Assembly: GCA_944323135.1 (NCBI GenBank)
Contig: CALURI010000019.1
Location: forward strand, 1-36,270
Direction: 5' to 3'
Source: Candidatus Gastranaerophilales bacterium
GTDB taxonomy: Bacteria > Cyanobacteriota > Vampirovibrionia > Gastranaerophilales > Gastranaerophilaceae
Length of the DNA: 36,270 bases
This document shows, piece after piece, positions 4,528 through 36,270 of the stretch. Position 1 is the first letter of the stretch, and every line of letters begins with the position of its first letter. The position numbers were made by a program, and so were the translations under genes. The notes below the pieces were generated by a model. The model was not told where the DNA came from, did no database searches, and was given only the letters and a program-made list of their open reading frames with translations.

Positions 4528-4639
4528 TTAAAGTTTCGAAAAACTTTAATATGTCCTGAGGAGTTTGACTCCTAATTCTTATTTGGGTTATACAAATTTA
4601 TGTATGACCGTTGTATTACGGGTAGATTTTTTCTACCCG
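4528..4639 (-). repeat. three consecutive inverted repeats after the coiled-coil gene
   Basis: From the stop of the 5781-4633 gene outward: CGGGTAGA/TCTACCCG (4619-4626/4632-4639, overlapping the TAG stop), AGGAGT/ACTCCT (about 4559-4573), and ATTAAAGTTT with its complement (about 4529-4551). None is followed by a strong T tract. They may protect the 3' end of the transcript upstream of the real terminator. Confidence 0.45.
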
Positions 4640-5781
4640 AATGTTTTGAATGTTGATTCTGTGTTTTTTTCGATAACTTTTTGTACTGCATCCATTTCAG
4701 TTGAAATTGCATCTTGTTCTGTATCGAGTTGTTTTAATCTTAATTCAAGGTTTTTATCTTGAGCTTGAACTATTTCGATTTTAGAGTTAATTTCTTGAAT
4801 TGCTTGATCATATTCATATTTTTCATATTCATATTGGTTCATAGCATCTTCGTAAGCGGCTTGGTCTGTCGCTGTTGAAGTAGTTAATGAATAAGTAACG
4901 CCTGTATCTTCTATAGGAGTTCCGTCATCATCATATTGCGGGATAGTTATATTTATATAACGCCCTGAACTGTCTTTTTCAATTTTACATCCGGCAGAAG
5001 CTTTTACCTCTTCTGTTTTAGTTTCGCTTCCGATTGTGTAACAATTTATGTTTGATTGAGAATTACCGTTATCATCATAGTTTGCGTTTTCTAAATCCGT
5101 AAGTTTATAAAAATACGGGTTGTATTCTCCGGTAGTGGTGTCTTTTACATATCGTACAAGATAATCGCTTGCTCCGTATTTTTGATTTAGTAATTCAATA
5201 TATTCAGCTTCTTCTTTTTGAAGTTGTGCAACCTGATCTGCGGATAAAGATTTTAAATATTCATCCTCGCTGTTAATTGCAATTGTTTTTCCTTCCGTAT
5301 CAATTGCGTTTCCGGAAAAATCAGGTGTTGCATAATATTTTTTATCTTTTGAATTATAGTAGGCTGTTGTTCCGTCAATATCATAAGTAATTGCATCACT
5401 CATATTTCTAAGAGTAGTCGCGCCTACTTTGAATGTAGTTCTGTTTTCATCGGCATTAACTATACTTGTAGATGCTCCGACAACTGAAAAATCATCTGTC
5501 CATTGTCTAAGATAGCTGACTGTATATGTTCCGTCGTTTTGAGCAATCATTGCTGTAATTTGGTTTGTTAATGCTCCGTCTTCGAAAGTATACACTGTTT
5601 TTGTGTAATCATCGACAGACGGCGGAACCGGTACTGACATACCCAACAAATCGTTGTAGTAGTTAGCAGACTGGTTAGACAATGTTGTTCTTTGTTGGTT
5701 TATCTGTTGACCTTCAAATTCAACATTGGTTTTTCTGGCTGTCAGTCCAAGAAATCTAGCTTGTGATGCTGCCATTCCCAT
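4633..5781 (-). CDS. hypothetical coiled-coil-tailed protein, short paralogue
   Basis: 382 residues. The N-terminus MGMAASQARFLGLTARKTNV and the C-terminal coiled coil (about 300-382, ending DAVQKVIEKNTESTFKTFG) are clearly related to those of the protein at 9752-11527. The middle is different, acidic and Tyr/Asp/Thr-rich. Conserved helical ends with a variable middle recall axial proteins of flagella and other type III secretion systems (hook, filament, cap). This is architecture only, as I cannot match it to any such family. No signal peptide or TM is seen, consistent with non-Sec export or a cytoplasmic role. The start is fixed by an AAAGGAAG site and by a leader nearly identical to that of the paralogue. 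It follows the HEAT-like gene after 108 bases and ends in hairpins plus a terminator. Confidence 0.8.
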   Translation of the reverse strand: MGMAASQARFLGLTARKTNVEFEGQQINQQRTTLSNQSANYYNDLLGMSVPVPPSVDDYTKTVYTFEDGALTNQITAMIAQNDGTYTVSYLRQWTDDFSVVGASTSIVNADENRTTFKVGATTLRNMSDAITYDIDGTTAYYNSKDKKYYATPDFSGNAIDTEGKTIAINSEDEYLKSLSADQVAQLQKEEAEYIELLNQKYGASDYLVRYVKDTTTGEYNPYFYKLTDLENANYDDNGNSQSNINCYTIGSETKTEEVKASAGCKIEKDSSGRYINITIPQYDDDGTPIEDTGVTYSLTTSTATDQAAYEDAMNQYEYEKYEYDQAIQEINSKIEIVQAQDKNLELRLKQLDTEQDAISTEMDAVQKVIEKNTESTFKTFG

Positions 5782-5889: not shown

Positions 5890-6375
5890 TTATGTTTGAG
5901 GCTGATTTCTAAAACGAGGTGAAATGTACGCTAGGATTGCTCCTCCGATTTCTTCATTCGGGTCAAAATTTGAAGCTTGAGGATGTAAAGAATTTTGTAT
6001 TAACATTTTTACAAGCGGACCGAATGCATCAGGAACTTGAGTTTTTCTGTATATTCCGGCAAGATATGTTTGAATGTTCGGAGATGTTGTATTATTGAAA
6101 CGCGACAAAATTGGATACATTTTATCAATACCTTTTACTCCGTTATCAAGCATTTCATTTACTATGTGTAAAGTCTCTACAATTTGGGTTTCATTATTAG
6201 AATGAGATAGGATATCTGCAAGGTATGGCAGGGCTGCTTCTCTTTGAGATATAAAGCAGTCAACTTTATTCTTGTCAACAAGAGTGTAATTCCTGTTGCC
6301 TGAAGGAAGCATACAAGGTTGATATTGCGTTATATTATTATATGTTACAGGTTGTACAGTAAGATAATTATACAT
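5890..6375 (-). CDS. hypothetical HEAT/ARM-like helical repeat protein
   Basis: 161 residues. After an N-terminal stretch without clear fold (about 1-45), the rest is paired amphipathic helices of HEAT character: REAALPYLADILSH, TQIVETLHIVNEMLDNG, GIDKMYPILSRF, NIQTYLAGIYRKT and AFGPLVKMLIQNS. Repeats of this type are protein-binding scaffolds. No catalytic motif, signal peptide or membrane segment is visible. It starts 8 bases after the stop of the four-TM protein gene, with AGAGGGA as ribosome binding site, so they are one transcript and may form one complex. The family is not recognised by name. Confidence 0.75.
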   Translation of the reverse strand: MYNYLTVQPVTYNNITQYQPCMLPSGNRNYTLVDKNKVDCFISQREAALPYLADILSHSNNETQIVETLHIVNEMLDNGVKGIDKMYPILSRFNNTTSPNIQTYLAGIYRKTQVPDAFGPLVKMLIQNSLHPQASNFDPNEEIGGAILAYISPRFRNQPQT

Positions 6376-6383
6376 TAATCCCT

Positions 6384-7862
6384 CTATGAATATACAAATG
6401 GCGGTCCGTTTTTAATTTCAAGTAATATATTATCTGCAATAACTTTTAATTCTTCTTTAGGTTTTTTATTTTTTGCTTGTTTGTAAAATTCGTCAACAAG
6501 AGGTTGTATTGCAGCTTCTTTTTTTGATTTGAAGTTTCTGAGCTCTGTTGAAACAAGTTTGTTTTGCAAATCAACTTCTGTTTGGGCATTCAGTTTTTTT
6601 ACTTGAACTTCTTTTATTGCATCACCTGCAAGTTTGCCGCCGTAACTCAGAGCTGTAAGTCCTGTAATCCCGAAGAATAATTGCTTAAATTGTTTATTAT
6701 CAGTATCTAAAAGCCAGTTGTAGAAAAATGCTCTGTAATCATCGACGTGTGAATAGAATGTCGGTTTTGGCGTACCGTCTCCGCCTATTGTTTCATTTAC
6801 TTTTGTTGTTGATGTTTTAGCTTTTTTTATTAATTTTTGAGTAAAATCGTTGACTTCATCTTTATTCCACTTCAAATCTTTCAGGTAATTGTTAATTGTA
6901 TCTTCATTTGCATCTATTGATTGGAAATATGCTTCAAGAAGTTTTTTATCATTATCTTTTGTTTTGTTTGTGGAATTTTTTACAATATTTGTTATCAGGT
7001 CTTTTCTGTTTTTTACATAATCTTCTAATAATGTTTTACTTTTGCTTAGGTTTTTTAGTGACATATAACCTAAACCTACTATTGCAGCAACAGTCCCAGC
7101 TCCGAGTAAAAAGTAATTAAAACTGTTATTTTTTTGATTTTTATTCGCATATTTATCGCCTGTAAAATTTAAATGTTTTCCAAAATTAGGTAATATTTTT
7201 TCACTGTCATCAGATAAATATTTACTAAATTCTTTAGCTTTTTCTGAAAGCATACTTCTTGTTATTTGAATTTTACCTGCAAATGATTGTGTTTCAATAT
7301 CTATAAGTTGTTCTTGCATGTTTTTTTGGATATCAGCTTCACGTTTTTTTACCCAGACATCTTTGAAACCGTCAAAGAAAGTTTTACCCATAAATGCCAT
7401 TGCACTGAGTGTTAAAACTCCGACACCAGCAAGAATTGTTTTTCTTGTAGGACTTTGAATCATTTGATACAGTGCTTGATGTGTTTCTTCGTTGATGGCT
7501 ACATTTCTGGTTGTTGCCGGAAGTCTTTTTTCATTTGAAATTTTAAGATTAATTTTAGTATTTCGTTTTACAAACGCAGAAAGCAGTGCAATAGCTCCCA
7601 TAACTCCTGTTGCTATGGCGCTTATCGGAACTATGCTTTTTTCGGGAGAATTATTATATTCATATAATCTTAAAGGCATTTTAGTGTTTTTGGAAATTAC
7701 TAGAGTATCGCAGGTGTCTTCAAGATTTACATTAGAATCTGATTTTATAAAATTATTTACAAGAACGCCTTCTTTTGTTTCCATGTTTGCACGTTTTTGT
7801 GTTGTTGTTAAATTTTTTTGTTGTCTTAAAGTTTCACTGTCTCTAAGCGGACTGATTGTCAT
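6384..7862 (-). CDS. hypothetical four-TM membrane protein with internal duplication
   Basis: 492 residues with four hydrophobic segments: IVPISAIATGVMGAIALLSAF (near 80-100), ILAGVGVLTLSAMAFMG, FLLGAGTVAAIVGLGYM, and LFFGITGLTALSYGG. Long charged, helical cytoplasmic-type segments lie between them. The stretch after TM2 (GKTFFDGFKDVWVKK...) and the stretch after TM4 (GKLAGDAIKEVQVKK...) align over about 55 residues, so the protein is two copies of a two-TM plus helical-tail unit. It overlaps the upstream Cys/His coiled-coil gene by 20 bases and is followed 8 bases later by the HEAT-like gene. No known family is recognised; a membrane platform for its neighbours is inference. Confidence 0.75.
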   Translation of the reverse strand: MTISPLRDSETLRQQKNLTTTQKRANMETKEGVLVNNFIKSDSNVNLEDTCDTLVISKNTKMPLRLYEYNNSPEKSIVPISAIATGVMGAIALLSAFVKRNTKINLKISNEKRLPATTRNVAINEETHQALYQMIQSPTRKTILAGVGVLTLSAMAFMGKTFFDGFKDVWVKKREADIQKNMQEQLIDIETQSFAGKIQITRSMLSEKAKEFSKYLSDDSEKILPNFGKHLNFTGDKYANKNQKNNSFNYFLLGAGTVAAIVGLGYMSLKNLSKSKTLLEDYVKNRKDLITNIVKNSTNKTKDNDKKLLEAYFQSIDANEDTINNYLKDLKWNKDEVNDFTQKLIKKAKTSTTKVNETIGGDGTPKPTFYSHVDDYRAFFYNWLLDTDNKQFKQLFFGITGLTALSYGGKLAGDAIKEVQVKKLNAQTEVDLQNKLVSTELRNFKSKKEAAIQPLVDEFYKQAKNKKPKEELKVIADNILLEIKNGPPFVYS

Positions 7863-8550
7863 TTTTTTCTAAATCCTTTTCATCTTGAGTAAGTTTTTTG
7901 TATAAATCGTGTATAAATGTTCTTAATTCAAAAGCTTTTTTCGTTTCATCTATTTGTTTGTCATTGTTATCTGTATCCATTGGTTGGAATATTGAAAATA
8001 GAGATTTTACTTTCTTTTTCAAATCTTTAAAAGCTTCTGATATTTTCTTTTCGATAGAAGCTTTTAGTTCCCCAACCATTGCAGTCAGTTTGTCTGAAAT
8101 ATCAGCTAATTTTTGTTGTATTGTTTGAATTGTGTTTGAGATAGTTGTCGGGATGTTTGCTATAGTTCTTACAATTCCTCCAAGAACTGTGTTTAAAACA
8201 AAGTTAACGGGTTTTGCAATAATTTGCGGTGTATTGTTAGAGAAAAACTGGGCAATGTTTGCAAGCCTTTGGCTTGAATTCATTAATGCATTTTGAAAAG
8301 CTTGTACATTTTGTGCAAAGTTTTGAGCATCTTGTGCACGTTGTAATTTCGCATTTTGTTGAGCTTTTAAAAATGCTCCTATAGCAGCACATTCATTCCA
8401 ACTCATTTCACCAGGCTTGGCAGAAAAATCTGCTTTTTTCATACCGCCGCCGCCCCCCATGCCATTGCATATCGGGCATGCTCCAAGCGGAAGACCGTGC
8501 GGACAAGTCCCTACTCTTGTGTTGTTTGTTTGTACTACACCAAGTGACAA
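7843..8550 (-). CDS. hypothetical protein with CPHG-CPIC knuckle and long helices
   Basis: 235 residues. It starts with TTG at 8550, supported by AGGAGG eight bases upstream. The N-terminus carries CPHGLPLGACPICNG (Cys16, His18, Cys25, Cys28), a likely zinc knuckle, then a GMGGGGG linker. Next come a helical Gln/Ala-rich region (about 50-100), a moderately hydrophobic amphipathic stretch VNFVLNTVLGGIVRTIANIP, and a coiled coil TIQQKLADISDKLTAMVGEL with a Lys-rich continuation. The C-terminal tail is charged. It is first in the run 8550-5890 and overlaps the next gene by 20 bases. The knuckle suggests a protein or metal contact at the head of a rod. No family name can be given. Confidence 0.78.
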   Translation of the reverse strand: MSLGVVQTNNTRVGTCPHGLPLGACPICNGMGGGGGMKKADFSAKPGEMSWNECAAIGAFLKAQQNAKLQRAQDAQNFAQNVQAFQNALMNSSQRLANIAQFFSNNTPQIIAKPVNFVLNTVLGGIVRTIANIPTTISNTIQTIQQKLADISDKLTAMVGELKASIEKKISEAFKDLKKKVKSLFSIFQPMDTDNNDKQIDETKKAFELRTFIHDLYKKLTQDEKDLEKNDNQSA

Positions 8551-8683
8551 TAAAAAATCCTCCTGTGTTTTTCACGTTAGAGGACACTTTTGAAAAATAT
8601 ATCTTACTTACCGATGCTCGCGGTAAATAACTTTTTCTGAGTGTTCCGGCTTTTACGGTTGCGGCACAGCTGGAGATGTTCAC
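8408..8683 (-). other. possible small ORF or structured leader upstream of the CPHG gene
   Basis: A GTG at 8683 has a perfectly spaced AGGAGG (7 bases) and opens a 91-codon frame starting with VNISSCAATVKAGTLRKSYL. Its last half overlaps the CPHG gene in another frame and looks like out-of-frame reading. The non-overlapping part (8551-8700) is richer in G+C than its surroundings and contains nested pairings such as GTG..CCG/CGG..CAC, plus TTACCG/CGGTAA (about 8610-8630). A leader RNA or a short regulatory peptide are both possible. The rest of the gap up to 8887 is AT-rich and holds the promoter of the plus-strand acyltransferase. Confidence 0.3.
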
Positions 8684-8853
8684 TCCATTTCCTCCTATTT
8701 TTAAGAGTATGATAAGAATATATTTATGTCAATTTTTCTGAATAATTATATTAATATATATAAAGTTAGTGAAATTTTCTAAAATTAATCCAAGTAAACA
8801 GTAATTATTACATTAAATAAGTTAATTTTTCTTAAAATTTTTTATTTGAAATT

Positions 8854-9724: not shown

Positions 9725-9753
9725 AAAAAAGCCGATTTTAAATCGACTTTTTT
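9725..9753. terminator. bidirectional terminator
   Basis: AAAAAAG/CTTTTTT with an inner CGATT/AATCG stem and one mismatch. It serves both the plus-strand acyltransferase and the convergent coiled-coil gene, whose TAA lies within it. Confidence 0.8.
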
Positions 9754-11527
9754 AGGCATTATATCTTTTGAAAGATTTTTCAATGTTTTTCGATATTGTG
9801 TTCTTCACCGTATCATATTCTGTTGTTAGAGAAGAAATTTCAGTATCCAGATTTTTCATTTTCATGTCTATTGTTTCTTCTTTTGCATTTAATTTGGCTT
9901 TTTCTGTTGTATATTTTGCTTCGGCTTGTGCAATCATTGTATCATCTGAAACTTCTTTTATATATGTATCTGTAGCATAATTACCTTGATAATAATATCC
10001 GTCATCTTTGACTTTTGATATATAAAGCATTCCGCTTTGTAGCATTTCTTGTAAATATTCATTATCTTCTATTTCATTGTTTTCTGTCCAACCATTTGCA
10101 CATATTTGATTGAATAATGAATCATAAAAAGTTGATTGAGCTAATTCATCACTTGAAACAGTTACTCCTGTTGTAATTGTAAGTATTGTATTGTTATCAA
10201 CAAGTGATGATTCGGATAGCTTATTTCCGACATAATAAGCATCTGCCCCATTTGCATCTGTTGCAGAAATACCGTTCATAAAATCATAGAAATAAGTTAA
10301 GTATGCTTTCATGACACTGCTTAAGTTTACACCAACGGCAGATTTACATCCGTTTTTATCATCATGACCTGAATCGGCATTACCTCTTGCAACAAGACCA
10401 ATATAACCTGTTCCATCTGAACTAAGCCAATTGTTAACATCAGATATTACCCCTCTATTATTATCTTTATTACTTTTATACCAGTAAGCAAAGTTCCCCA
10501 TATCGGTGTCATTAAAGAATTGGTATTTCCCATCTTCTGCATTGCTATCACCTCTTTTAGAATCTCTGTTTTCGGTATTACATTGATTACTTATCATATC
10601 TTCAATATTTGTTCTTGCATATTCAAGAGCTTGTTGTGTATAAGCATCACCTGTGTCCAATAATGATTCTAAAGTATCCAGCATGTCATCCCAAAAAGTT
10701 GAAGTCGTTATTGCATCAATTGCACCACCGTAGTATCCTATAGAACTGGTTCTGTTGCTAACTCCTTGAGCTATCATTGTATAATTTCCGCTTAAGATAT
10801 CTCCAAGTGTAATTTGACCTGAAGAAGCTTCTGTATAATCTGTTGGTCCAGGTATTCCCAAAATACCTGAAGTATTAGATGCAATATCGCTTTCACCATT
10901 TTTATAATATGTTTTTGCGTTATTATCGTATAATACAACTCCTCGTGTAATGTCTGTTTCAAAATATGTGTCAGTAGGATTAACCACGTAGCTGTCTAAT
11001 ATTTCAGCTAATTCATCTATTGTAACATCTTGTGTTTGAATAGCTATAGTTGTATCTCCGCCAAAACCTGCAGCTTGATTATATGGCAGACCTTGAATTT
11101 TTGTTTTCAAAGTTTCTGATATTAAACCGCTGTTGTATAAACCTTCAACAAATGCTTGGCGCATAGTTTCTGAAGGTAATGTCCCTAATCCTTCTTGAGG
11201 TATGCCGGCAAAACGAGCAGCCGCAGCGTATTTGCTGTTTAATGTAACTCTGCCCATTGAATCAATTAATATAGTCGGCATATAATCATTTAATGCGGAA
11301 GGAGTCATTAATATACCGTAAGATAAAGTAGTGCTGGTATCCCCTGTTCCGTAATAGTCATATATTAATTTAGTTTGATTTAAAGAATTTTGGTATTCAT
11401 TTGAAAGGTCAGCAAGTTCACGTGACAATGCGATTTTTTGGTGAGATAAACGCATTGATTGATATTCACAGTCTGATTTCCTCGCTGTGATTGTCAATAA
11501 TCTTGCTTGTCCTGCTGCTAATCCCAT
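9752..11527 (-). CDS. hypothetical coiled-coil-tailed protein, long paralogue
   Basis: 591 residues from the ATG at 11527. A TTG 21 bases upstream is rejected because the paralogue at 5781 has the same leader and the same MG(L/M)AA start. The N-terminus MGLAAGQARLLTITARKSDC and the C-terminal coiled coil (about 525-591, with MKNLDTEISSLTTEYDTVKN and ending SKNIEKSFKRYNA) match the shorter paralogue. The roughly 450-residue middle is unrelated to it, globular-looking, Gly/Thr/Asp/Tyr-rich and low in charge clusters, as in surface or secreted domains. There is no Sec signal. Conserved helical ends around a variable exposed middle suggest an axial or secreted structural protein, by architecture only. 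It stands alone, with a terminator at its end. Confidence 0.8.
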   Translation of the reverse strand: MGLAAGQARLLTITARKSDCEYQSMRLSHQKIALSRELADLSNEYQNSLNQTKLIYDYYGTGDTSTTLSYGILMTPSALNDYMPTILIDSMGRVTLNSKYAAAARFAGIPQEGLGTLPSETMRQAFVEGLYNSGLISETLKTKIQGLPYNQAAGFGGDTTIAIQTQDVTIDELAEILDSYVVNPTDTYFETDITRGVVLYDNNAKTYYKNGESDIASNTSGILGIPGPTDYTEASSGQITLGDILSGNYTMIAQGVSNRTSSIGYYGGAIDAITTSTFWDDMLDTLESLLDTGDAYTQQALEYARTNIEDMISNQCNTENRDSKRGDSNAEDGKYQFFNDTDMGNFAYWYKSNKDNNRGVISDVNNWLSSDGTGYIGLVARGNADSGHDDKNGCKSAVGVNLSSVMKAYLTYFYDFMNGISATDANGADAYYVGNKLSESSLVDNNTILTITTGVTVSSDELAQSTFYDSLFNQICANGWTENNEIEDNEYLQEMLQSGMLYISKVKDDGYYYQGNYATDTYIKEVSDDTMIAQAEAKYTTEKAKLNAKEETIDMKMKNLDTEISSLTTEYDTVKNTISKNIEKSFKRYNA

Positions 11528-11545
11528 TGTTTTCGATTTTCCTTT
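11528..11545 (-). promoter_or_regulatory. conserved leader shared with the short paralogue
   Basis: The bases before the ATG, AAAGGAARATCGAMARCA (R = A/G, M = A/C), are the same in front of the genes starting at 5781 and 11527, with three substitutions in 18. It includes the ribosome binding site and fixes both starts. Confidence 0.6.
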
Positions 11546-11721
11546 CAAAACCAGTAACGTTCATTTATGTATTACGGTATTTACTAGATTAATCTTTAAA
11601 AAATAATCCTTTTTTGTAACATTTGTTAATATTTTTTTAACTAAAAAATAAGATAGTTATTAATAAATATAAAATTACTACAAGTATAATAATGCAAAAT
11701 GATGAGATTTTATAAAAAAGT

Positions 11722-11729: not shown

Positions 11730-11838
11730 ATAAATAGAAAGGTGAAGAAAATTTTATAAATCAGTTCCGTTGCGCGTACGGAGTATCAGCCGGTTATTAT
11801 TTTGTTGTATACAAAATAGAAGAAAGGCAGAAAAGAAA

Positions 11839-13464
11839 ATGACCAGCTTACAATTTCAAAATGATTTGGATCGCTTGACAGAAGTTTTGCCTGACAAAGT
11901 CAGGAAACACATCTCTTATGACAAAATGGAAGATGTTATAGAAATTGTATTGGATATAGGAAGAACCCCTGAAATTCGCCATGCAGGAGGTAAAATTGAA
12001 TATCTTGGTGATGAATTTGTAACCGAAGATGATATTAATTATATAACCTCAAGAATTCAAGAATTTACGTCAGATAACCGTTCAGGAATTCCCGGAACTT
12101 TGCATAGGATTAGTGCTATAAGAAACAGGCAAGGAAAAATTATTGGTCTGACTTGCAGAATAGGAAGAGTTGTTACAGGTACTATTGCTTGTATAAAAGA
12201 TATTTGTATGATGAATAAAAGTATTCTTTTCCTAGGACGTCCGGGGGTTGGTAAAACTACTAAATTAAGAGAAATTTCAAGATTAGTTGCTGATGAACTC
12301 GGCAAGAGAGTTGTTATTGTTGATACATCAAATGAAATTGCAGGCGACGGAGATACCCCGCATCCGGCAATCGGGCATGCAAGACGTATGCAGGTTACTC
12401 AACCTGAATTTCAAAAAGATATTATGATTGAAGCGGTTGAAAATCATACGCCTGAGGTTATTGTCGTTGACGAAATAGGTACTGAAGAAGAAGCTCAAGC
12501 TGCCCGAACAATTGCAGAACGCGGTGTTATGTTGATTGCTACGGCACATGGCAACAGCTTAGAAAATTTAATTAAAAACCCGACATTATCGGATTTGGTG
12601 GGTGGTATCCAATCAGTTACCTTAGGAGATGATGAAGCAAAACGAAGAGCTTCTCAAAAAACGGTTTTGGAAAGAGAAAAACAGCCGACATTTGATGTTG
12701 TTATTGAAATTCTTGATAGAAATACGCTTGCTGTATATAAAAATACAGCAGAAGCTGTTGATTATATTTTGCGCGGTTGGCCTATAAGACCTGAAATCAG
12801 AAAAGTTGATAAAACTTATGATGCTCAACCTCAGGTTGAAGAAAAACATGATCCCGGAATTTCAGATATTCCAAAAGAAATAGATAAATTAGAACAAAAA
12901 ATTCAGCCTGAACATAATACTGACAGTTTGAAATTTAGTTTTTCACGTCAGAAATATGTTGAAGAGGTAAAAGGAATAAAAAAAATCTACCTTTATGCAG
13001 TATCAAGAACTATAGTTGAAAAAGTTATAGAAAGATTAGATTTGAATGCAGAAATTACACGTAATCTTGAAGATGCAGATATTGTAATTGCTCATAAAAA
13101 CTTTATAAAAGGAGGAGCAAAAGTTTTAAGTACAGCAAATGACTATAGATTACAGATATTTTATGTAAAAACAAATTCTATGGCGCAGATTCAAAAGGTC
13201 TTGAAGGAAGCTTTACAAATTACAGAAGCATCAGAAACTTTATGCGGATATTATGATGATGCGGAACGAGCTTTAGATGAGGCCAAAGCTGCTATTAATA
13301 AAATTCTTGCAGGTGCAGAGCTTGTAGAATTAACACCCCAAAATCAACATATTAGAAAGCTCCAGCATGAACTTGTTGAACAGCATAACCTTTCAAGTAA
13401 ATCCGTTGGTGAAGGCAGTAACAGACATTTAAGAATTGTCGGCGGAAAAGATTTTAATAACTGA
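11839..13464 (+). CDS. Ycf45-like AAA ATPase with C-terminal R3H domain
   Basis: 541 residues from the ATG at 11839 (AAAGGCAG site upstream). An in-frame start at 11770 lacks such a site and begins with a non-conserved Arg-rich stretch. The N-terminal domain (1-115) contains LTEVLPDKVRKHI and RHAGGKIEYLGDE, followed by a SpoIIIAA-like P-loop ATPase. The Walker A is GRPGVGKT (133-140) and the Walker B is EVIVVDEIG with Asp211-Glu212. RRMQV, ATAHGNSLENLIKNPTL and LVGGI are family blocks. After a linker (330-370) comes a C-terminal module (about 375-480) and an R3H domain (about 500-541, RKLQHELVEQHNL...S.SVG). R3H binds single-stranded nucleic acid. The family is typical of cyanobacteria and plastids; its role is not established. 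It is followed by the glutaredoxin gene. Confidence 0.9.
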   Translation: MTSLQFQNDLDRLTEVLPDKVRKHISYDKMEDVIEIVLDIGRTPEIRHAGGKIEYLGDEFVTEDDINYITSRIQEFTSDNRSGIPGTLHRISAIRNRQGKIIGLTCRIGRVVTGTIACIKDICMMNKSILFLGRPGVGKTTKLREISRLVADELGKRVVIVDTSNEIAGDGDTPHPAIGHARRMQVTQPEFQKDIMIEAVENHTPEVIVVDEIGTEEEAQAARTIAERGVMLIATAHGNSLENLIKNPTLSDLVGGIQSVTLGDDEAKRRASQKTVLEREKQPTFDVVIEILDRNTLAVYKNTAEAVDYILRGWPIRPEIRKVDKTYDAQPQVEEKHDPGISDIPKEIDKLEQKIQPEHNTDSLKFSFSRQKYVEEVKGIKKIYLYAVSRTIVEKVIERLDLNAEITRNLEDADIVIAHKNFIKGGAKVLSTANDYRLQIFYVKTNSMAQIQKVLKEALQITEASETLCGYYDDAERALDEAKAAINKILAGAELVELTPQNQHIRKLQHELVEQHNLSSKSVGEGSNRHLRIVGGKDFNN

Positions 13465-22044: not shown

Positions 22045-22187
22045 TCGAAATAAAAAACGGGGTATTCAATCTTTACAATTGTAATAATAAACGTTAACAG
22101 TTTGCATTGATTGATATTCTTCTGATAATATATATATATAAAACTATAAATATAATAAAGAGGGATATTTTTAAGAAAGAGAATAAA

Positions 22188-25100
22188 ATGGCGCTGACTG
22201 TAGATGAAATTGCAGAAATCCTCAACACAATGCGTGTTGAAAATGAACACAATGTTGAAAATTTTGAAAAAGTTTTAACCGGTATAAATAATAAACTTGA
22301 ATTAATGGCTGATGATAATGAGGCCACTGATTTAATTAAGCTTTATCTTTCGGAACTGAAAAAGATTGTTGAAGATAAATATACTGATGCAAATGAAAGA
22401 TTCTCAGGAATAGAAAATTATCTTAAAAATATTGTTTCTTCTCAAAATGAAGGTGCTAAAACAGCAGAATTAAATGATTTATCTAAGGTTTTGAGCGCAA
22501 GTTTTAATGCTTTATCAAGTGAATTTTCACATCAGGCAAGTGCTTTAAACGATCTGGATTCCAAATTAGAAATTATTAGAACAAGTTCATTTAATAAAGA
22601 TGAGCTTGCCGGATTGTTAAACAATTTTGCATCTGATATATCAGAAATGAACGATGATTTTGGAAAATCATTCGGAAAAATTCAAGATTCTCTTGCTGAT
22701 ACAATTGAAAAAATAAATAATTTAGATTTTTCTGCTCAGATAAATTCTCTTGAAGGGAAAATATCATCTCTTGCCCAAAATATTGATTCTGTACCGGCAA
22801 AAATTTCTTTTGCAACTGTGGAAGATAAGATTTCATATTTCCAAAATATTATAGATTCTTTGAGAGGCGTTATATCAGATATCCCTTCTTTAAGTGCAGA
22901 AGCTGTTGCAAAGAAGTTTTCAGATTTAGAAGATAATTTTAAAAATATTGTTTCAGAAGCAGACTTTACTGCATTCAAATCTGATTTGGCAGATTTTGTG
23001 CAAAAAATTATTGATAATTCAAGCGCTCTGAATTCAGAACTATCATATTCCGCTGAAAAAATTGAAAATATTTTATCAACTATAAATTCAATGGATTATA
23101 CGCAGGATTTTGATCGTATTTCAAGAGAAATGGCGGAATTAGAATCTGCTGTTAATGAAAATATTGCAGAGGTTGAAAAAAACATAAATACTTCAATTTC
23201 AGATGTATCTGAAGATATATTGAAAAAACTTGATAATTTTGAAACTTCTTTATCATCAATTGTATCTGATTCTGATTTTGCAGGATTTAAAAATGATTTG
23301 GCGGATTTTGTACAAAAAATTATCGATAATTCAAGTGCTTTAAATTCAGAACTGTCATATTCTGCCGAAAGAATTGAAAATATTTTAACAACTGTTAAAG
23401 CTCTTGATTTCAGGGATGATTTCGCAGGGATAGAAAGCCGTATTAATGATTTGAAGGAAACTTTTGATGAAGGTTCAAAAGTAAATTATACAAATTTGTC
23501 GGAACAGATAAATACAATAAAAACGTTAATAGATAACGGCTTTTCCGGCGTCGATACGTCAAGAGAGACTGTTTATAATGATTTGAAAAACCGTATAAAT
23601 GATATTGTATCTAATTTACAAACAGTCATAAATTCTAATCCCCAAAAATCTATTGATGAACTTTCATCTGTGGTATTGAATTTATCAGAAAATGCTGCAG
23701 AATTGAGAAAAAATATCAGCACTGATATTCAAGGAGATTACGGGGATGTTAAATCAAGTATAAATGCTGTCGCTTTAGCTTTACAAAATGTTAAAGAAGA
23801 TATAATTACAAAAAATACAGATTATTATAATTTATCTTCTGAAAATGCTTCTTTATTACAAGAAAAAATTGATGAACAACTCAGGGTTTTAGGTGACATT
23901 AAAAACTTAATTAATGAAGGTAATAAGTTTGATTTTTCAGAGGTTACATCTTCAATTGATAATATAAATAATGAAATTTCTTTGATAATTTCAGATTTGA
24001 AAGAAGATTCTTCTTCAAATTATGAAGCTGTTAAATCGTATATAGAGGAACTATCTTCCGCTATAACTTCTACCCGTGAAGAATTTTTGAATGTCGCCGG
24101 TCAAAATTCAAATCTGTTGAGTGCAAAACTTGATACTGTTGTGTCAAATGTTGCGGATTTCAGAGAAGAATTTAAACAGGCTATATCAAGTGATGTAGGT
24201 AATTTTTCTTTAATTTCTGATGATATAAACGGGATATCTGAAAAAATTGAAAAGTTACAAAGCAATTTTGTTGAAAATTCCGCAGAAAATTTCAATTCCG
24301 TTAAATTTTTATTAGAAGAAATGGCGGAAAAGTTATTTGAAGATATCGAATATCAAAAGAAAATGTTTTCTGATGTTTCGCAAAACGAAGAACAAAAACG
24401 TCTTGAATCAGTCCAAAAATTGACTGAAGATATTCAAAATCTGGAAACTATTTTAACAACAAATAACGAATCTTTTAAATCAGTTATAGATGAAAATATA
24501 AAAAATATTAAAGAATATATTAAAGAGTTTAGAGAATCTTTATATACATCACAGCTTGAAGGTGAAAACAAATTTAATGTAAAACTTGAGGCTCTGGATG
24601 TATTAAATCATGGATTTGAAACATTTGTTACGGATTTGAATAGCCAAATTCAAAATGTCTTGGATGAAATAAAAACTCTCGATGCAACAAAGCAGAATAA
24701 TGAAATTCAAACAGAGTTAAATAATTTGAAAATTTTGTGTGAAGGTATTCTTACTTCTACAAATGATATGTTAAGCAGAAATGATGAACTGGCTTCTGTA
24801 ATATCATCTTTGATGGAAATTGTATTGAAGAAAGGTGATATAAATGAAATATCTTTCAAATTAGATGAATATTCTGACTTATTAGCTTCATTAAGAGAAT
24901 TTGCTGAAGAATCTTTTGCGAATAATTCTTCTGAAATAAATTCTTTATATGAAAGAGTTGTGACTTCTTTTGAAAATATTGTATCAAGAGAGGATTTTGC
25001 GGAATTTAAAAAAGATTTGTCTGAATTCCTCCAAAAGGTTACAGATAATTCAAATATTTTAAATGCGGATTTTCAAACTAACAAAGAAAAAATTGAGGAG

Positions 25101-28100
25101 GTTATCGGAAAGCTTTCTTCTATTGAACCTTTTGATTATTCCTATGATTTAGAACAAATTTCATCAAAAATTGATGATTTATCTATGATATTTTCAAGTT
25201 CATCTTCTGCAAATTATGAAGGTATCAGCAAAAAACTCGACGAAATAAAATCACAAATTGAAGAAAATAATAAAGATGAAAAAATTACCGGTAAACTTGA
25301 TGAAGTTTCAGAACTTGTAAATTCTGTAAAAGACATATTATCAGAATCTGTTGATACAAATTCGAAATCAATAAATGAGCAATTAGCTAAGTTTGAAGAT
25401 GAATTTTCAAGAGTTGTAACAACTGATGATTTTACAAATTTCCGTCTTGATTTCGGCGATTTTATTCAAAAAATATTAGATAATGCTGATGTTTTGCATT
25501 TGAATAGTGATGCTGCAAAAGAACAAATTAATACTGTTTTAGATAAATTAAATACATTGAATTTTTCTGCAGATTTTCAAAATATTGACAGCAGGTTGAA
25601 TGATATAAAATCCTCATTTGATAACAATTCAAAAATAAATTGTGAAAATATAATAAATGAGATTAGCATTTTACAAACCTGGTTAGATGATAATTTAGCT
25701 AAAAATTCAGATTTAGATAAAGAAAATTACGATAAACTTTATTTTTCATTAACAGAGCTTTCTGATAATGTTAATGTTTTATTGGATTTGTCATCTCATA
25801 AACAATTAGAAATCTTGGACAAAATTTCAGAAACAATTGGAAGTTTTGTTGTTGACATTAATGAAAATATTGATAATGGGGTTAAACTTAATTTAGAAGA
25901 ATTAAAAAGTTCTGTTTCTGATGCGGTTAGTCAAATAACAGAGGTAAAACAAGGATTTGAAGATAAAACTGACAATATAACTTTTAGTTTAACTTCAGGG
26001 TTTGATAATATAAAATTATCATTGGAAAATATATTAACAGCATTTAATGCATTAAATGATTATTTAAAAGACGGGTATGAAAAAAATACTTCTGATGTTT
26101 TAACAGGAATCGAAACTGCTTCTGAGAAAATTAATGAATTAAAAGAAGAAATTCATAAAGTCACAACAGATTATTCAGACAGAATTTTTACTGTTATGAA
26201 TGAAATATCTGATAAATTTGAAGGGTTATCAACAGGTGTAGCAGATAGTGTAAGCTCTCAGATGTTAGGTTTTAAAAATACTCTTTCCGCAATATCTGAT
26301 AATTTGCAGAGTATGTATGGAGAGTATTTTAAACATTTACAAGATGCAAGTGAAGCTCAAGTAACTGAGATAAACGGGATATCAGGCAGTATAAGTGAAC
26401 TTCGTTCTCATGTAGATGAAGCAATTCAAAGTTTGAAAGATTATGTAACTGAATTAAATGTAGCTGCAAAATCTTCAAAATCATTGAGTGACAGTAAATT
26501 TTCGGAAAAACTGATTAATCTCGAAGCAGCATTGGCTAATAATGCTGACGGATATGAAGAAAAAATAGTTTCTCTTCAGGAAAAATTATCTGAATTTGTA
26601 AGTGTTATTGAAAATAGTTCTTCTGTTGCTGAAGAAAAAATAGCTTCATCTATGAATGAAATTGATGGAATAAAAAGTGATCTCGCTTCTGTAGAGGAAC
26701 TTATTAATACTTTAAGATTATCTTCTGATGAAAAAAGTTCACAGATTATTGCATTACTTGACACTGGTATTGAAAATGTTACTGTTTCAGTAAATGAAAT
26801 TAGTAATAATGCAGTTCAGAATATTGATGCTTCAATAAGCAAAAATATTTCAGTATTGGAAGATAAGCTTACAATTCTTTTAAATTATGTAGAAAATTTA
26901 AAAGATACAAATTTGAAAGATTTAGGGTATGAGCTGAATGACAGATTATCAGAATTAAAACAAGAATTAGGTTTAATTAATACCGATATAACAGATGCTT
27001 TGCAAACAAAATTAGAAGACATAATAGGTGCAATTGAACCAGTAAAATCAGCTGTAGAAAGTTTTTCAGGCTATGATTTTGATAAACTCTTAGATGATGT
27101 AAAATCAGCTCTTGAAACTTCATTTATGAACTTTAGCGTTGATGTCAACGGTGAACTTTCTGCGCATTCAGAATCTGTATTGAGATTGGAACAAGCTTAT
27201 AAAGAAACATTTAACAAGATTTCTGTAATAGAGGATTGTGTATCGGAGGATATTCAAAACAGTATTGAACTTTTGAATGTTACGATAGAAACTAATACCC
27301 GTAATTTAAGATGCGGTTTGGAAGAAAAACTTGATGAATATATTAATGACCTAAAAACTCATCTTGATATAGTAATAAATGATACAAAAACTTTAGATTC
27401 GATAGATAATCTTAAAGATGAACTTTCTGTAAAATTAGATGCTGTAATTTCAGAACAAGAGAATTTGGCTCAACAAAATAATGTTATAACAGCGGGTATA
27501 AATACTCTTGGTGATAGTTTGAAAAATTATGTTCAATCTGCTTGTGAAAATACAATAGACAAATATAGCCCTGTACAGAATAAAGAATCTATGGATGCTT
27601 TGCATCAAAAGTTAGATACTCTTGTTGCAACAACCCGTGAGGATGAAATTTTAAATTCATTATTCGAGCTTGAACAGAAAGCGGATTCTATCGGATTGGA
27701 TTTATCTGAATCAATAAATTCTATTAAAGAAAAAATCGATGTAATAGAAAAAGACAATTCATTAATACTTGCATTTCATGAGCTTGTTGCTAAAGTGGAA
27801 TCATTTACTGATGATAATACTTTGAATATAGCATTAAAAGCATTATCAGAAAAAATTGATATTATTGCATCTGATAGTGCAATGGACGAACTTCACGACA
27901 AATTTGATGAGTTTTCTTCAAAATTAGAATCATATACAGATGACAGTTCAATAGATACAGCGTTAAAATCGTTATCTGAAAAAATCGATGTGATTGCATC
28001 TGATAGTACAATGGAAGAACTCCATGATAAATTTGATGAATTTTCTTCAAAATTAGAATTATATACAGATAGCAGTTCAATAGATACAGCGTTAAAAACG

Positions 28101-29348
28101 TTATCAGAAAAAATTGATGTGATTGCATCTGATACTACAGTAGAAGAACTTTATGAAAGATTTGACGAATTTTCATCAGAAGAAGATAAGCTGGCAGAAA
28201 TGTTATCTACTTTACATGAAAAAGTTGATGCAATTGCTTTTGATGGTTCTGATTTTGATATAGAAGAAGAAATTGATGATATAAAATCTCTTATTTTTGA
28301 ACAAAGAAAATATTTTGAGGCATCATCAGATGAAAAAGCAGCAGCAATAGATAAATATTTGCGCGATGTTTTACTGAAGCTTGATAATGTTGATTTGGAA
28401 AAGAATTCGGAAGATATAAAAGATTCAATCATTAATACGCTTGTTTCGCTTTTTGAACAAATTTCTTTTGTTGAAGAATCCGAAGATATAAAAGATTTTG
28501 TGGAAGAAAAAACTGATGCAATCAATCAAAATCTTATAGAAGTTCAAAACCAATTAAAGCAGATTACAAAACCAAGTGATGATTCCGGATATTCATACAC
28601 TTTGCAGGATGTAGAAAGTGATATCGCGAAATTACGTCTGGCAATAAATAATATGTCAGATAATAGTTTTGAAAGTATATCGGATAATATTAAAAAAATT
28701 GTAAGTTCGGTAGAGGGACTTGAATCTACTTTGACTCAAGATCAAATTGTTGATTTAAAAAGTGATATTGAAAAGTTAAATGAAGATATTTTAAGTATCA
28801 GCTCCCGAACAAATAAACTTTTGCTCACTTCAGATGAATCTTATAAAGCATTAAATGACGGTTTAAATAACTTTAGCAGTCTTGTTTATAAGCTGGAAGA
28901 CAGAATAAATTATCTGGATAATTCAGAGGTGAGCGAAAGGCTTGAAAGGAAAATTGATAATATTCAATCAATGGCAGTTGCGTCTGCAAATGCTGACAAA
29001 GTTTTCCATCAAGTAATGATGTATTTGGGAGAATGGATAGATTCCACAACCGAAAATATTTCAAGTATAACTGATAAAACTTCTGAAATTTCAAGAATAA
29101 AAGAAAATATAGAAGAATTAAAAGAAATAATTCCTGAAAAATCATTGATATTAGAAGAAATTGAAAATAAGTTTGAGGAGCAGGAATTACGTATTGACAG
29201 ATTAGAGATGAAATTAGAGAAAATTTTATCGACACTTGAAGAAAAAGATAATATGATGTTAAATAGAAAAGTGGATAAAATTGAAAAAATGTTATCCAGA
29301 CTTGGTACAAATATAGAAAAACTGGCATCATATGTTGATGAAGAATAA
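22188..29348 (+). CDS. giant coiled-coil repeat protein
   Basis: 2386 residues from the ATG at 22188; an upstream in-frame start at 22107 is rejected because its codons run through the AT-rich promoter region. It begins MALTVDEIAEILNTMRVENE and has no signal peptide or membrane segment. It is acidic, Ser/Asn/Asp-rich, with very few Cys and long amphipathic helices with heptad-like hydrophobic spacing throughout. A module of about 60 residues, (D)DFxxFKxDLxxFxQKIxDNSxxLNxxx...EKIExIL, occurs at least four times, starting near 22962, 23274, 24993 and 25428. Three 43-residue tandem repeats lie at 27801-28187. The C-terminus (about 2330-2386) is a more regular coiled coil ending in EKMLSRLGTNIEKLASYVDE. 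A cytoplasmic filament or scaffold, or a non-Sec exported rod, are possible; I cannot name a family. It overlaps glcD by 17 bases. Confidence 0.85.
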   Translation: MALTVDEIAEILNTMRVENEHNVENFEKVLTGINNKLELMADDNEATDLIKLYLSELKKIVEDKYTDANERFSGIENYLKNIVSSQNEGAKTAELNDLSKVLSASFNALSSEFSHQASALNDLDSKLEIIRTSSFNKDELAGLLNNFASDISEMNDDFGKSFGKIQDSLADTIEKINNLDFSAQINSLEGKISSLAQNIDSVPAKISFATVEDKISYFQNIIDSLRGVISDIPSLSAEAVAKKFSDLEDNFKNIVSEADFTAFKSDLADFVQKIIDNSSALNSELSYSAEKIENILSTINSMDYTQDFDRISREMAELESAVNENIAEVEKNINTSISDVSEDILKKLDNFETSLSSIVSDSDFAGFKNDLADFVQKIIDNSSALNSELSYSAERIENILTTVKALDFRDDFAGIESRINDLKETFDEGSKVNYTNLSEQINTIKTLIDNGFSGVDTSRETVYNDLKNRINDIVSNLQTVINSNPQKSIDELSSVVLNLSENAAELRKNISTDIQGDYGDVKSSINAVALALQNVKEDIITKNTDYYNLSSENASLLQEKIDEQLRVLGDIKNLINEGNKFDFSEVTSSIDNINNEISLIISDLKEDSSSNYEAVKSYIEELSSAITSTREEFLNVAGQNSNLLSAKLDTVVSNVADFREEFKQAISSDVGNFSLISDDINGISEKIEKLQSNFVENSAENFNSVKFLLEEMAEKLFEDIEYQKKMFSDVSQNEEQKRLESVQKLTEDIQNLETILTTNNESFKSVIDENIKNIKEYIKEFRESLYTSQLEGENKFNVKLEALDVLNHGFETFVTDLNSQIQNVLDEIKTLDATKQNNEIQTELNNLKILCEGILTSTNDMLSRNDELASVISSLMEIVLKKGDINEISFKLDEYSDLLASLREFAEESFANNSSEINSLYERVVTSFENIVSREDFAEFKKDLSEFLQKVTDNSNILNADFQTNKEKIEEVIGKLSSIEPFDYSYDLEQISSKIDDLSMIFSSSSSANYEGISKKLDEIKSQIEENNKDEKITGKLDEVSELVNSVKDILSESVDTNSKSINEQLAKFEDEFSRVVTTDDFTNFRLDFGDFIQKILDNADVLHLNSDAAKEQINTVLDKLNTLNFSADFQNIDSRLNDIKSSFDNNSKINCENIINEISILQTWLDDNLAKNSDLDKENYDKLYFSLTELSDNVNVLLDLSSHKQLEILDKISETIGSFVVDINENIDNGVKLNLEELKSSVSDAVSQITEVKQGFEDKTDNITFSLTSGFDNIKLSLENILTAFNALNDYLKDGYEKNTSDVLTGIETASEKINELKEEIHKVTTDYSDRIFTVMNEISDKFEGLSTGVADSVSSQMLGFKNTLSAISDNLQSMYGEYFKHLQDASEAQVTEINGISGSISELRSHVDEAIQSLKDYVTELNVAAKSSKSLSDSKFSEKLINLEAALANNADGYEEKIVSLQEKLSEFVSVIENSSSVAEEKIASSMNEIDGIKSDLASVEELINTLRLSSDEKSSQIIALLDTGIENVTVSVNEISNNAVQNIDASISKNISVLEDKLTILLNYVENLKDTNLKDLGYELNDRLSELKQELGLINTDITDALQTKLEDIIGAIEPVKSAVESFSGYDFDKLLDDVKSALETSFMNFSVDVNGELSAHSESVLRLEQAYKETFNKISVIEDCVSEDIQNSIELLNVTIETNTRNLRCGLEEKLDEYINDLKTHLDIVINDTKTLDSIDNLKDELSVKLDAVISEQENLAQQNNVITAGINTLGDSLKNYVQSACENTIDKYSPVQNKESMDALHQKLDTLVATTREDEILNSLFELEQKADSIGLDLSESINSIKEKIDVIEKDNSLILAFHELVAKVESFTDDNTLNIALKALSEKIDIIASDSAMDELHDKFDEFSSKLESYTDDSSIDTALKSLSEKIDVIASDSTMEELHDKFDEFSSKLELYTDSSSIDTALKTLSEKIDVIASDTTVEELYERFDEFSSEEDKLAEMLSTLHEKVDAIAFDGSDFDIEEEIDDIKSLIFEQRKYFEASSDEKAAAIDKYLRDVLLKLDNVDLEKNSEDIKDSIINTLVSLFEQISFVEESEDIKDFVEEKTDAINQNLIEVQNQLKQITKPSDDSGYSYTLQDVESDIAKLRLAINNMSDNSFESISDNIKKIVSSVEGLESTLTQDQIVDLKSDIEKLNEDILSISSRTNKLLLTSDESYKALNDGLNNFSSLVYKLEDRINYLDNSEVSERLERKIDNIQSMAVASANADKVFHQVMMYLGEWIDSTTENISSITDKTSEISRIKENIEELKEIIPEKSLILEEIENKFEEQELRIDRLEMKLEKILSTLEEKDNMMLNRKVDKIEKMLSRLGTNIEKLASYVDEE
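22962..23370 (+). repeat. two 104-codon-spaced copies of the coiled-coil module
   Basis: The module beginning DFTAFKSDLADFVQKIIDNS (22962) returns at 23274. Over about 90 bases the copies differ at ten sites, nine of them synonymous and one Lys/Arg. The protein sequence is therefore held under selection after duplication. Confidence 0.8.
27801..28187 (+). repeat. three tandem 129-bp repeats inside the giant gene
   Basis: Units at 27801-27929, 27930-28058 and 28059-28187 each encode 43 residues of the pattern YTDDSSIDTALKSLSEKIDV then IASDSTMEELHDKFDEFSSK then LE. Units 2 and 3 are closest; unit 1 is more diverged and unit 3 drifts at its end. In-frame and head to tail, they look like recent expansion of a 43-residue helical pair. 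Confidence 0.88.
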
Positions 29349-36204: not shown

Positions 36205-36270
36205 ACAATGGAGAGTTTGATCCTGGCTCAGGACGAACGCTGGCGGCGTGCTTCATACATGCAAGTCGAA
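36205..36270 (+). rRNA. 16S ribosomal RNA, 5' end
   Basis: The 5' end of a 16S gene: AGAGTTTGATCCTGGCTCAG (the universal 27F site, E. coli position 8) starts at 36212, so the mature 5' end is near 36205. It continues GACGAACGCTGGCGGCGTGC and CATGCAAGTCGAA, helices universal in bacteria. It runs off the right edge. It is too short for taxonomy. Confidence 0.97.

Follow-up and report, generated by a model that had tools for sequence, protein, structure and literature searches.

Three contiguous genes of a Candidatus Gastranaerophilales bacterium, here designated A, B, and C, stand behind a cobalamin (vitamin B12) riboswitch and are best explained, taken as a whole, as a B12-repressed operon whose proteins would be made when B12 is scarce and would most likely serve in the acquisition or handling of corrinoids, a reading to which we assign a probability of roughly 55%. 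The control of A-B-C by B12 is well supported by the nucleotide sequences and very probably real. The genes lie in a 36,270-nucleotide stretch of DNA, referred to here as the window (contig CALURI010000019.1 of assembly GCA_944323135.1), and were compared across a sample of 117 genomes from the order.

According to the ORF list of the window, gene A (7843-8550, 235 aa), gene B (6384-7862, 492 aa), and gene C (5890-6375, 161 aa) are real open reading frames on the minus strand, at exactly the coordinates given by an earlier sequence-only reading of this DNA, including the 20-base overlap of A with B (7843-7862) and the 8-base gap between B and C (6376-6383). Gene A begins with a TTG codon, with the Shine-Dalgarno sequence AGGAGG located 8 nt upstream. 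In all three genes, differences from two relatives fall mostly at third codon positions (27, 10, and 103 differences at positions 1, 2, and 3 for A against locus L105), an excess indicating that A, B, and C are coding and are held under constraint at the protein level. Elsewhere in the window are a SpoIIIAA-like ATPase with an R3H domain (11770-13464), a 2413-residue protein with apolipoprotein-like helical repeats (22107-29348), and, at the contig end, the start of a 16S rRNA gene (36205-36270).

Protein A is composed of a Cys/His motif (CPHG..CPxC), a glycine linker, and a long amphipathic helix region, and the hydropathy of the family gives no strong membrane helix. The Cys/His knuckle picked out by the sequence-only reading proved invariant, as the CPHG-x-CPxC pattern is present in all 32 aligned homologues; at the DNA level, 51 of 60 genomes have the pattern, each of them a single time. 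Searched against PDB sequences, the A profile retrieved coiled coils of tape-measure, colicin, FtsH, and apolipoprotein type. The lack of evident signal peptides, judged by eye, suggests that both A and C reside in the cytoplasm.

Protein B is a membrane protein built from two related modules, in each of which a long charged helix comes after a membrane segment, and it ends in an almost invariant C-terminal peptide. Of the four transmembrane helices first proposed, three are clear in the family-mean hydropathy (~74-102, 140-163, and 246-270) and the fourth, near 395-413, is weak, with a maximum of 1.16. Alignment of the two halves with hhalign (probability 97.6, E 4.8e-12, 69 columns) identifies an internal repeat; 2 of 120 column-shuffled controls scored higher, the one inspected being a 26-column match at the profile end, and the call leans on match length and register besides score. 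The AlphaFold2 model of B is weak and not reliable (pLDDT 67.5, pTM 0.44); it had no structural match in the PDB at E <= 0.001, and the B profile found nothing credible among PDB sequences.

Protein C is small, and its AlphaFold2 model is a confident all-helical solenoid (pLDDT 89.8). The model aligns with ARM/HEAT repeats at a VIA-align Z of ~11 over 102-139 residues, a value that helical repeats often reach and that lies within the range of unrelated ones. Foldseek returned no PDB match for the model at E <= 0.001, the C profile found nothing credible among PDB sequences, and Pfam applied to 26 C homologues gave only four scattered single-member matches. None of A, B, and C matches a Pfam or NCBIfam family above cut-off, housekeeping families included, which agrees with the initial remark that no component belongs to a recognized system. 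Across Pfam, NCBIfam, and PHROGs, A and B have sub-cut-off or coiled-coil-type matches and C has none.

The main clue, which the sequence-only reading missed, lies ahead of gene A. An AdoCbl-II (cobalamin, vitamin B12) riboswitch aptamer occupies 8633-8709 on the minus strand (Rfam RF01689; score 43.2 bits, gathering score 36.5). It lies in the 5' leader of A, 82 nt ahead of the gene, and this leader is conserved across genera. The upstream ORF at 8408-8683 overlies the riboswitch and was for that reason rejected as a possible leader gene. RF01689 is matched in 110 of the 117 genomes at E <= 0.01 and exceeds the gathering score in 91 of them. At 99 of 106 A loci the same strand has a listed RF01689 match no more than 600 nt ahead of A, at a median distance of 85 nt. 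The seven others comprise four in which RF00174, the classical cobalamin riboswitch, exceeds its gathering score (G003, G010, G028, and G030), two with RF01689 below the gathering score (G060, 30.8 bits; G006, 20.9 bits, E 0.037), and G024, at whose A locus no cobalamin riboswitch was found; a cobalamin riboswitch, in these two cases below the gathering score, is therefore present upstream of A at 105 of the 106 loci. The aptamer of G060 (L046 and L350) appears split by an extra stretch.

The occurrence of two structural classes of B12 switch before the same genes argues for selection on B12 control. When 26 aptamers were aligned, compensatory changes, in which both partners differ and pairing is retained, turned up in five of eight predicted pairs; the wide loci L091, L103, and L116, whose listed matches are long or partial, were omitted. 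In 63 of the 68 genomes with exactly one listed switch, that switch is at A. Within family f1, to which the window belongs and in which 91 of 95 genomes contain A, the four genomes that lack A and B (G086, G101, G108, and G114) are also the only four without an RF01689 match.

The unit itself is maintained throughout the order. A was found in 106 of the 117 genomes, B in 105, and C in 93, nearly always as single copies, and A is followed by B on the same strand within 700 nt at 104 of 106 A loci, the exceptions being G096, in which B is missing, and G028, in which the contig ends at A. All three are contiguous at 85 of the 106 loci. The proposal that these genes form one unit is thereby borne out: they are not scattered across Gastranaerophilales, and their order and adjacency are kept far beyond chance. 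C is the looser member, with no match in 14 of the 106 A-bearing genomes and a location elsewhere in six (five genomes of genus g14 and G012). The contigs that carry a detached C are free of listed RF01689 matches, which implies that C need not be a B12 protein. In genus g14 the detached C lies downstream of a SigF/FliA-like sigma factor and a type IV prepilin peptidase (L102:6541-8709), and in G096 two C genes follow A (L098).

Wider loci were obtained from 34 places besides the window, 31 of them holding A, to give 32 A-bearing loci in total. Across these the neighbours of A-B(-C) vary from genus to genus, so that A-B(-C) is the conserved core. Among 244 genomes of the phylum, the B profile had two matches outside the order, both marginal (E 0.003 and 0.007), and it had none in the five other genomes of the class. 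A scan of ~85,000 species yielded 357 stretches encoding a B relative; of the best 80, all but a few, which bear other MAG titles, are labelled as Gastranaerophilales, Melainabacteria, or uncultured. A mobile-element reading was rejected, as tblastn searches of 50,697 phage and 72,556 plasmid records with B came back empty.

The same variability bears on gene D (4633-5781, minus strand), which starts 108 bases past C and belongs to a multi-copy family with coiled-coil tails. No terminator-like site was found between C and D on this strand, and the two genes may be co-transcribed in the window. Every one of the 117 genomes has matches to the D family, in most cases many and often more than 10; in the window, D and the protein encoded at 9752-11548 share a similar N-terminal segment and a coiled-coil tail. 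The sequence-only reading had placed A-B-C beside putative secreted rods as parts of an envelope or secretion apparatus, and one alternative retains that idea but puts the structure under B12 control, for example as a means of contacting or retaining neighbours that produce B12, with D as one of its exported rods. This genome does encode a cluster of FliMN, FliO, FliP, FliQ, an unknown protein, and FliR (L247:11307-15351, G000:C13), with a corrinoid iron-sulfur protein pair nearby, and the short kind of FliP is spread across the order even where a genome has a single FliP. The Fli cluster may be a type III export core, flagellum-type or non-flagellar, shared by the whole order, and the D family would supply candidate substrates for it. 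The following of C by D at 7 of the 32 A-bearing loci, the presence of a FliP-type export protein in 116 of 117 genomes, and the spacing of some 5-9 kb between A-B-C and FliP in five genus g5 genomes and in G055, which may be chance, would all fit such a structure. D, however, is not a conserved neighbour and no fixed part of the unit, the co-occurrence with FliP gives no support as FliP is present with or without A-B-C, and neither the Pfam and NCBIfam cut-offs nor the PDB profile searches gave A, B, or C any resemblance to a secretion component. The three-gene unit and its rough anatomy hold, but the link to rods is weak and the riboswitch points to B12 rather than to an export machine; we regard a B12-switched secretion structure as an outside chance.

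How the switch would act can be read in part from the leader. The window leader is predicted to fold with a probable expression platform hairpin at 8556-8586 (minus strand), in which an anti-Shine-Dalgarno segment (~8580-8584) would pair with the Shine-Dalgarno sequence of A (8559-8564); the whole leader has a z-score of -2.23. The Shine-Dalgarno site could be placed in 18 of 26 loci tried, and a perfect complement of at least 5 nt lies between aptamer and start in 11 of these 18 and is absent in seven. With plentiful adenosylcobalamin the folded aptamer would then favour the platform hairpin, in which the Shine-Dalgarno sequence of A is masked; as the three genes overlap or nearly touch, all three would be shut down together. 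When B12 is scarce, A, B, and C would be produced.

The direction of switching is further suggested by the company that the switch keeps. There are 51 listed RF01689 sites away from A; in 22 that were inspected, with first genes assigned by eye, the switch precedes NrdD (the class III, anaerobic ribonucleotide reductase) in 13, BtuB-BtuC-BtuD-BtuF-like operons in four, MetE in three, a CbiM cluster in one, and an OprB porin in one. Pfam agreed with the assignments for 10 proteins from six of the inspected sites, and the BtuB assignment reflects operon context, the NCBIfam B12-receptor models scoring below cut-off. Loci L293 to L312, where RF01689 stands before NrdD/NrdG, MetE, BtuB-like operons, CbiM, and the OprB porin, make up a map of the B12 regulon of the order. 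Genes of the BtuBCDF, MetE, and anaerobic ribonucleotide reductase types are switched off by B12 in other bacteria. These copies of the switch thus appear to mark a classic B12-repressed regulon, from which A-B-C would be expected to be on at low B12.

Membership in such a regulon also allows A-B-C to replace a B12-dependent function at low B12 without handling corrinoids at all, much as MetE substitutes for MetH, and the NrdD reductase for its B12-dependent counterpart, when B12 is scarce. The predominance of B12-independent enzymes behind the other switches (13 NrdD and three MetE of the 22 inspected, by eye) speaks for such a replacement. A, B, and C, however, match no enzyme family and look structural, as an amphipathic helix protein, a long-helix membrane protein, and a helical solenoid, and we know of no B12-dependent membrane process that they could replace, so that we consider this explanation unlikely, if less so than the secretion structure.

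Cobalamin riboswitches also control cobalt transporters, and A-B-C might import cobalt instead of corrinoids, with the Cys/His motif of A acting as a metallochaperone. The single inspected switch before a CbiM cobalt transporter cluster (L306) and the invariance of the Cys/His motif, which suits metal binding, are compatible with this role. Against it, the reconstruction for gut Melainabacteria reports synthesis of vitamins B2, B3, B5, B7, B9, and K, in a main text in which the words 'B12' and 'cobalamin' do not occur (Di Rienzi 2013, PMC3787301); to the extent of that account, which lists other B vitamins but not B12 as made, these bacteria would have little use for cobalt, and cobalt import is the least probable of the alternatives.

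For corrinoid acquisition or handling, the preferred reading, the genomic context is informative in several respects. The BtuC-type permease PF01032 is absent from 107 of the 117 genomes in a survey of FecCD-type importers, including this genome and 16 others of its genus, and is strongly matched in seven. This genome encodes a corrinoid iron-sulfur protein pair (PF03599), which is of the CdhD family and lies with an FtsH-type protease beside the Fli cluster (L247:16233-19964); in relatives of genus g3 this trio precedes A-B-C, and in G025, G062, and G063 of that genus the PF03599 pair is directly upstream of the switch and A-B-C. The larger subunit in G025 scores 322 bits with the NCBIfam model of the acetyl-CoA synthase gamma subunit, above the cut-off of 306. 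Also on this side is the published vitamin list cited above, in which B12 does not appear. Co-occurrence of PF03599 with A-B does not decide the matter, as the family is also missing from many A-B-bearing genomes, nor does that of the B12-binding domain PF02310, which 109 of 117 genomes possess, whether or not they have A-B-C. Among the four f1 genomes without A and B, G086, G108, and G114 are not PF03599-positive and G101 is.

The weak points of a corrinoid role are G101, the genomes with both A-B and BtuC, and the mobility of C. G101 keeps a corrinoid protein without A, B, C, and the switch, which implies that A-B-C is not indispensable for corrinoid use, and A-B is accompanied by a confident BtuC in G007, G013, G033, and G104. 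A role in transport in particular, which we infer, has against it that A, B, and C do not appear to resemble any known transporter and that there is no ATPase among them.

In the arrangement that best accommodates these observations, B would sit in the inner membrane through its two related modules, each contributing a membrane hairpin and a long charged helix, A would bring to B a Cys/His metal or corrinoid site together with its long amphipathic helix, and C would serve as a small ARM/HEAT-type adaptor. The three proteins would most likely act together in corrinoid capture, import, or transfer, in bacteria of which most have no BtuC-type importer. A stronger version is put forward tentatively, as less probable than the corrinoid role in general and more so than any of the alternatives above: the duplicated membrane module, the amphipathic protein with its Cys/His tip, and the ARM/HEAT adaptor would together form an entirely new type of machine for taking up or capturing corrinoids, with no evolutionary relationship to BtuCDF, ECF, or BtuM importers, and would provide the main B12 route of the whole order.

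Competition for B12 is thought to shape gut communities, with transport deciding its outcome. Being order-wide, B12-controlled, and without known homologues, in genomes from which BtuC is nearly absent, A-B-C is a concrete and testable candidate for how an uncultured order meets its need for corrinoids and, more broadly, for an unrecognized way of getting B12 or of coping without it. Three anonymous proteins gain a predicted inducing condition, and the mapping of riboswitches can suggest function where protein homology fails. Among the open-licence papers listed for Gastranaerophilales and Melainabacteria, none was found to describe the A-B-C operon, and none linked Gastranaerophilales with a riboswitch.

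Compared with known systems, B12 riboswitch regulons are of a familiar kind: the leader of A meets the curated score for the AdoCbl-II riboswitch (RF01689) and, as is usual for this class, precedes an operon, but the genes controlled here belong to no described B12 family, and the A-B-C effector unit matched nothing above cut-off in Pfam or NCBIfam and nothing convincing in PHROGs or the PDB. ARM/HEAT repeat proteins resemble C in fold at the Z of ~11 given above, though no sequence relationship to C was found and the fold alone gives no function. The BtuB-BtuCDF system is closer in regulation, as the same switch class precedes BtuB-BtuC-BtuD-BtuF-like operons in relatives and both that system and A-B-C include an inner-membrane protein, whereas BtuCDF consists of FecCD permease, ABC ATPase, and periplasmic binding domains, for none of which a Pfam match was obtained in A, B, or C. 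BtuM, which uses a conserved cysteine on cobalt, and ECF-CbrT are small B12 membrane systems that are likewise linked to riboswitches; from these, going by their general descriptions, A-B-C would be set apart by its lack of a Pfam or NCBIfam family match, its three proteins, and its long soluble helices.
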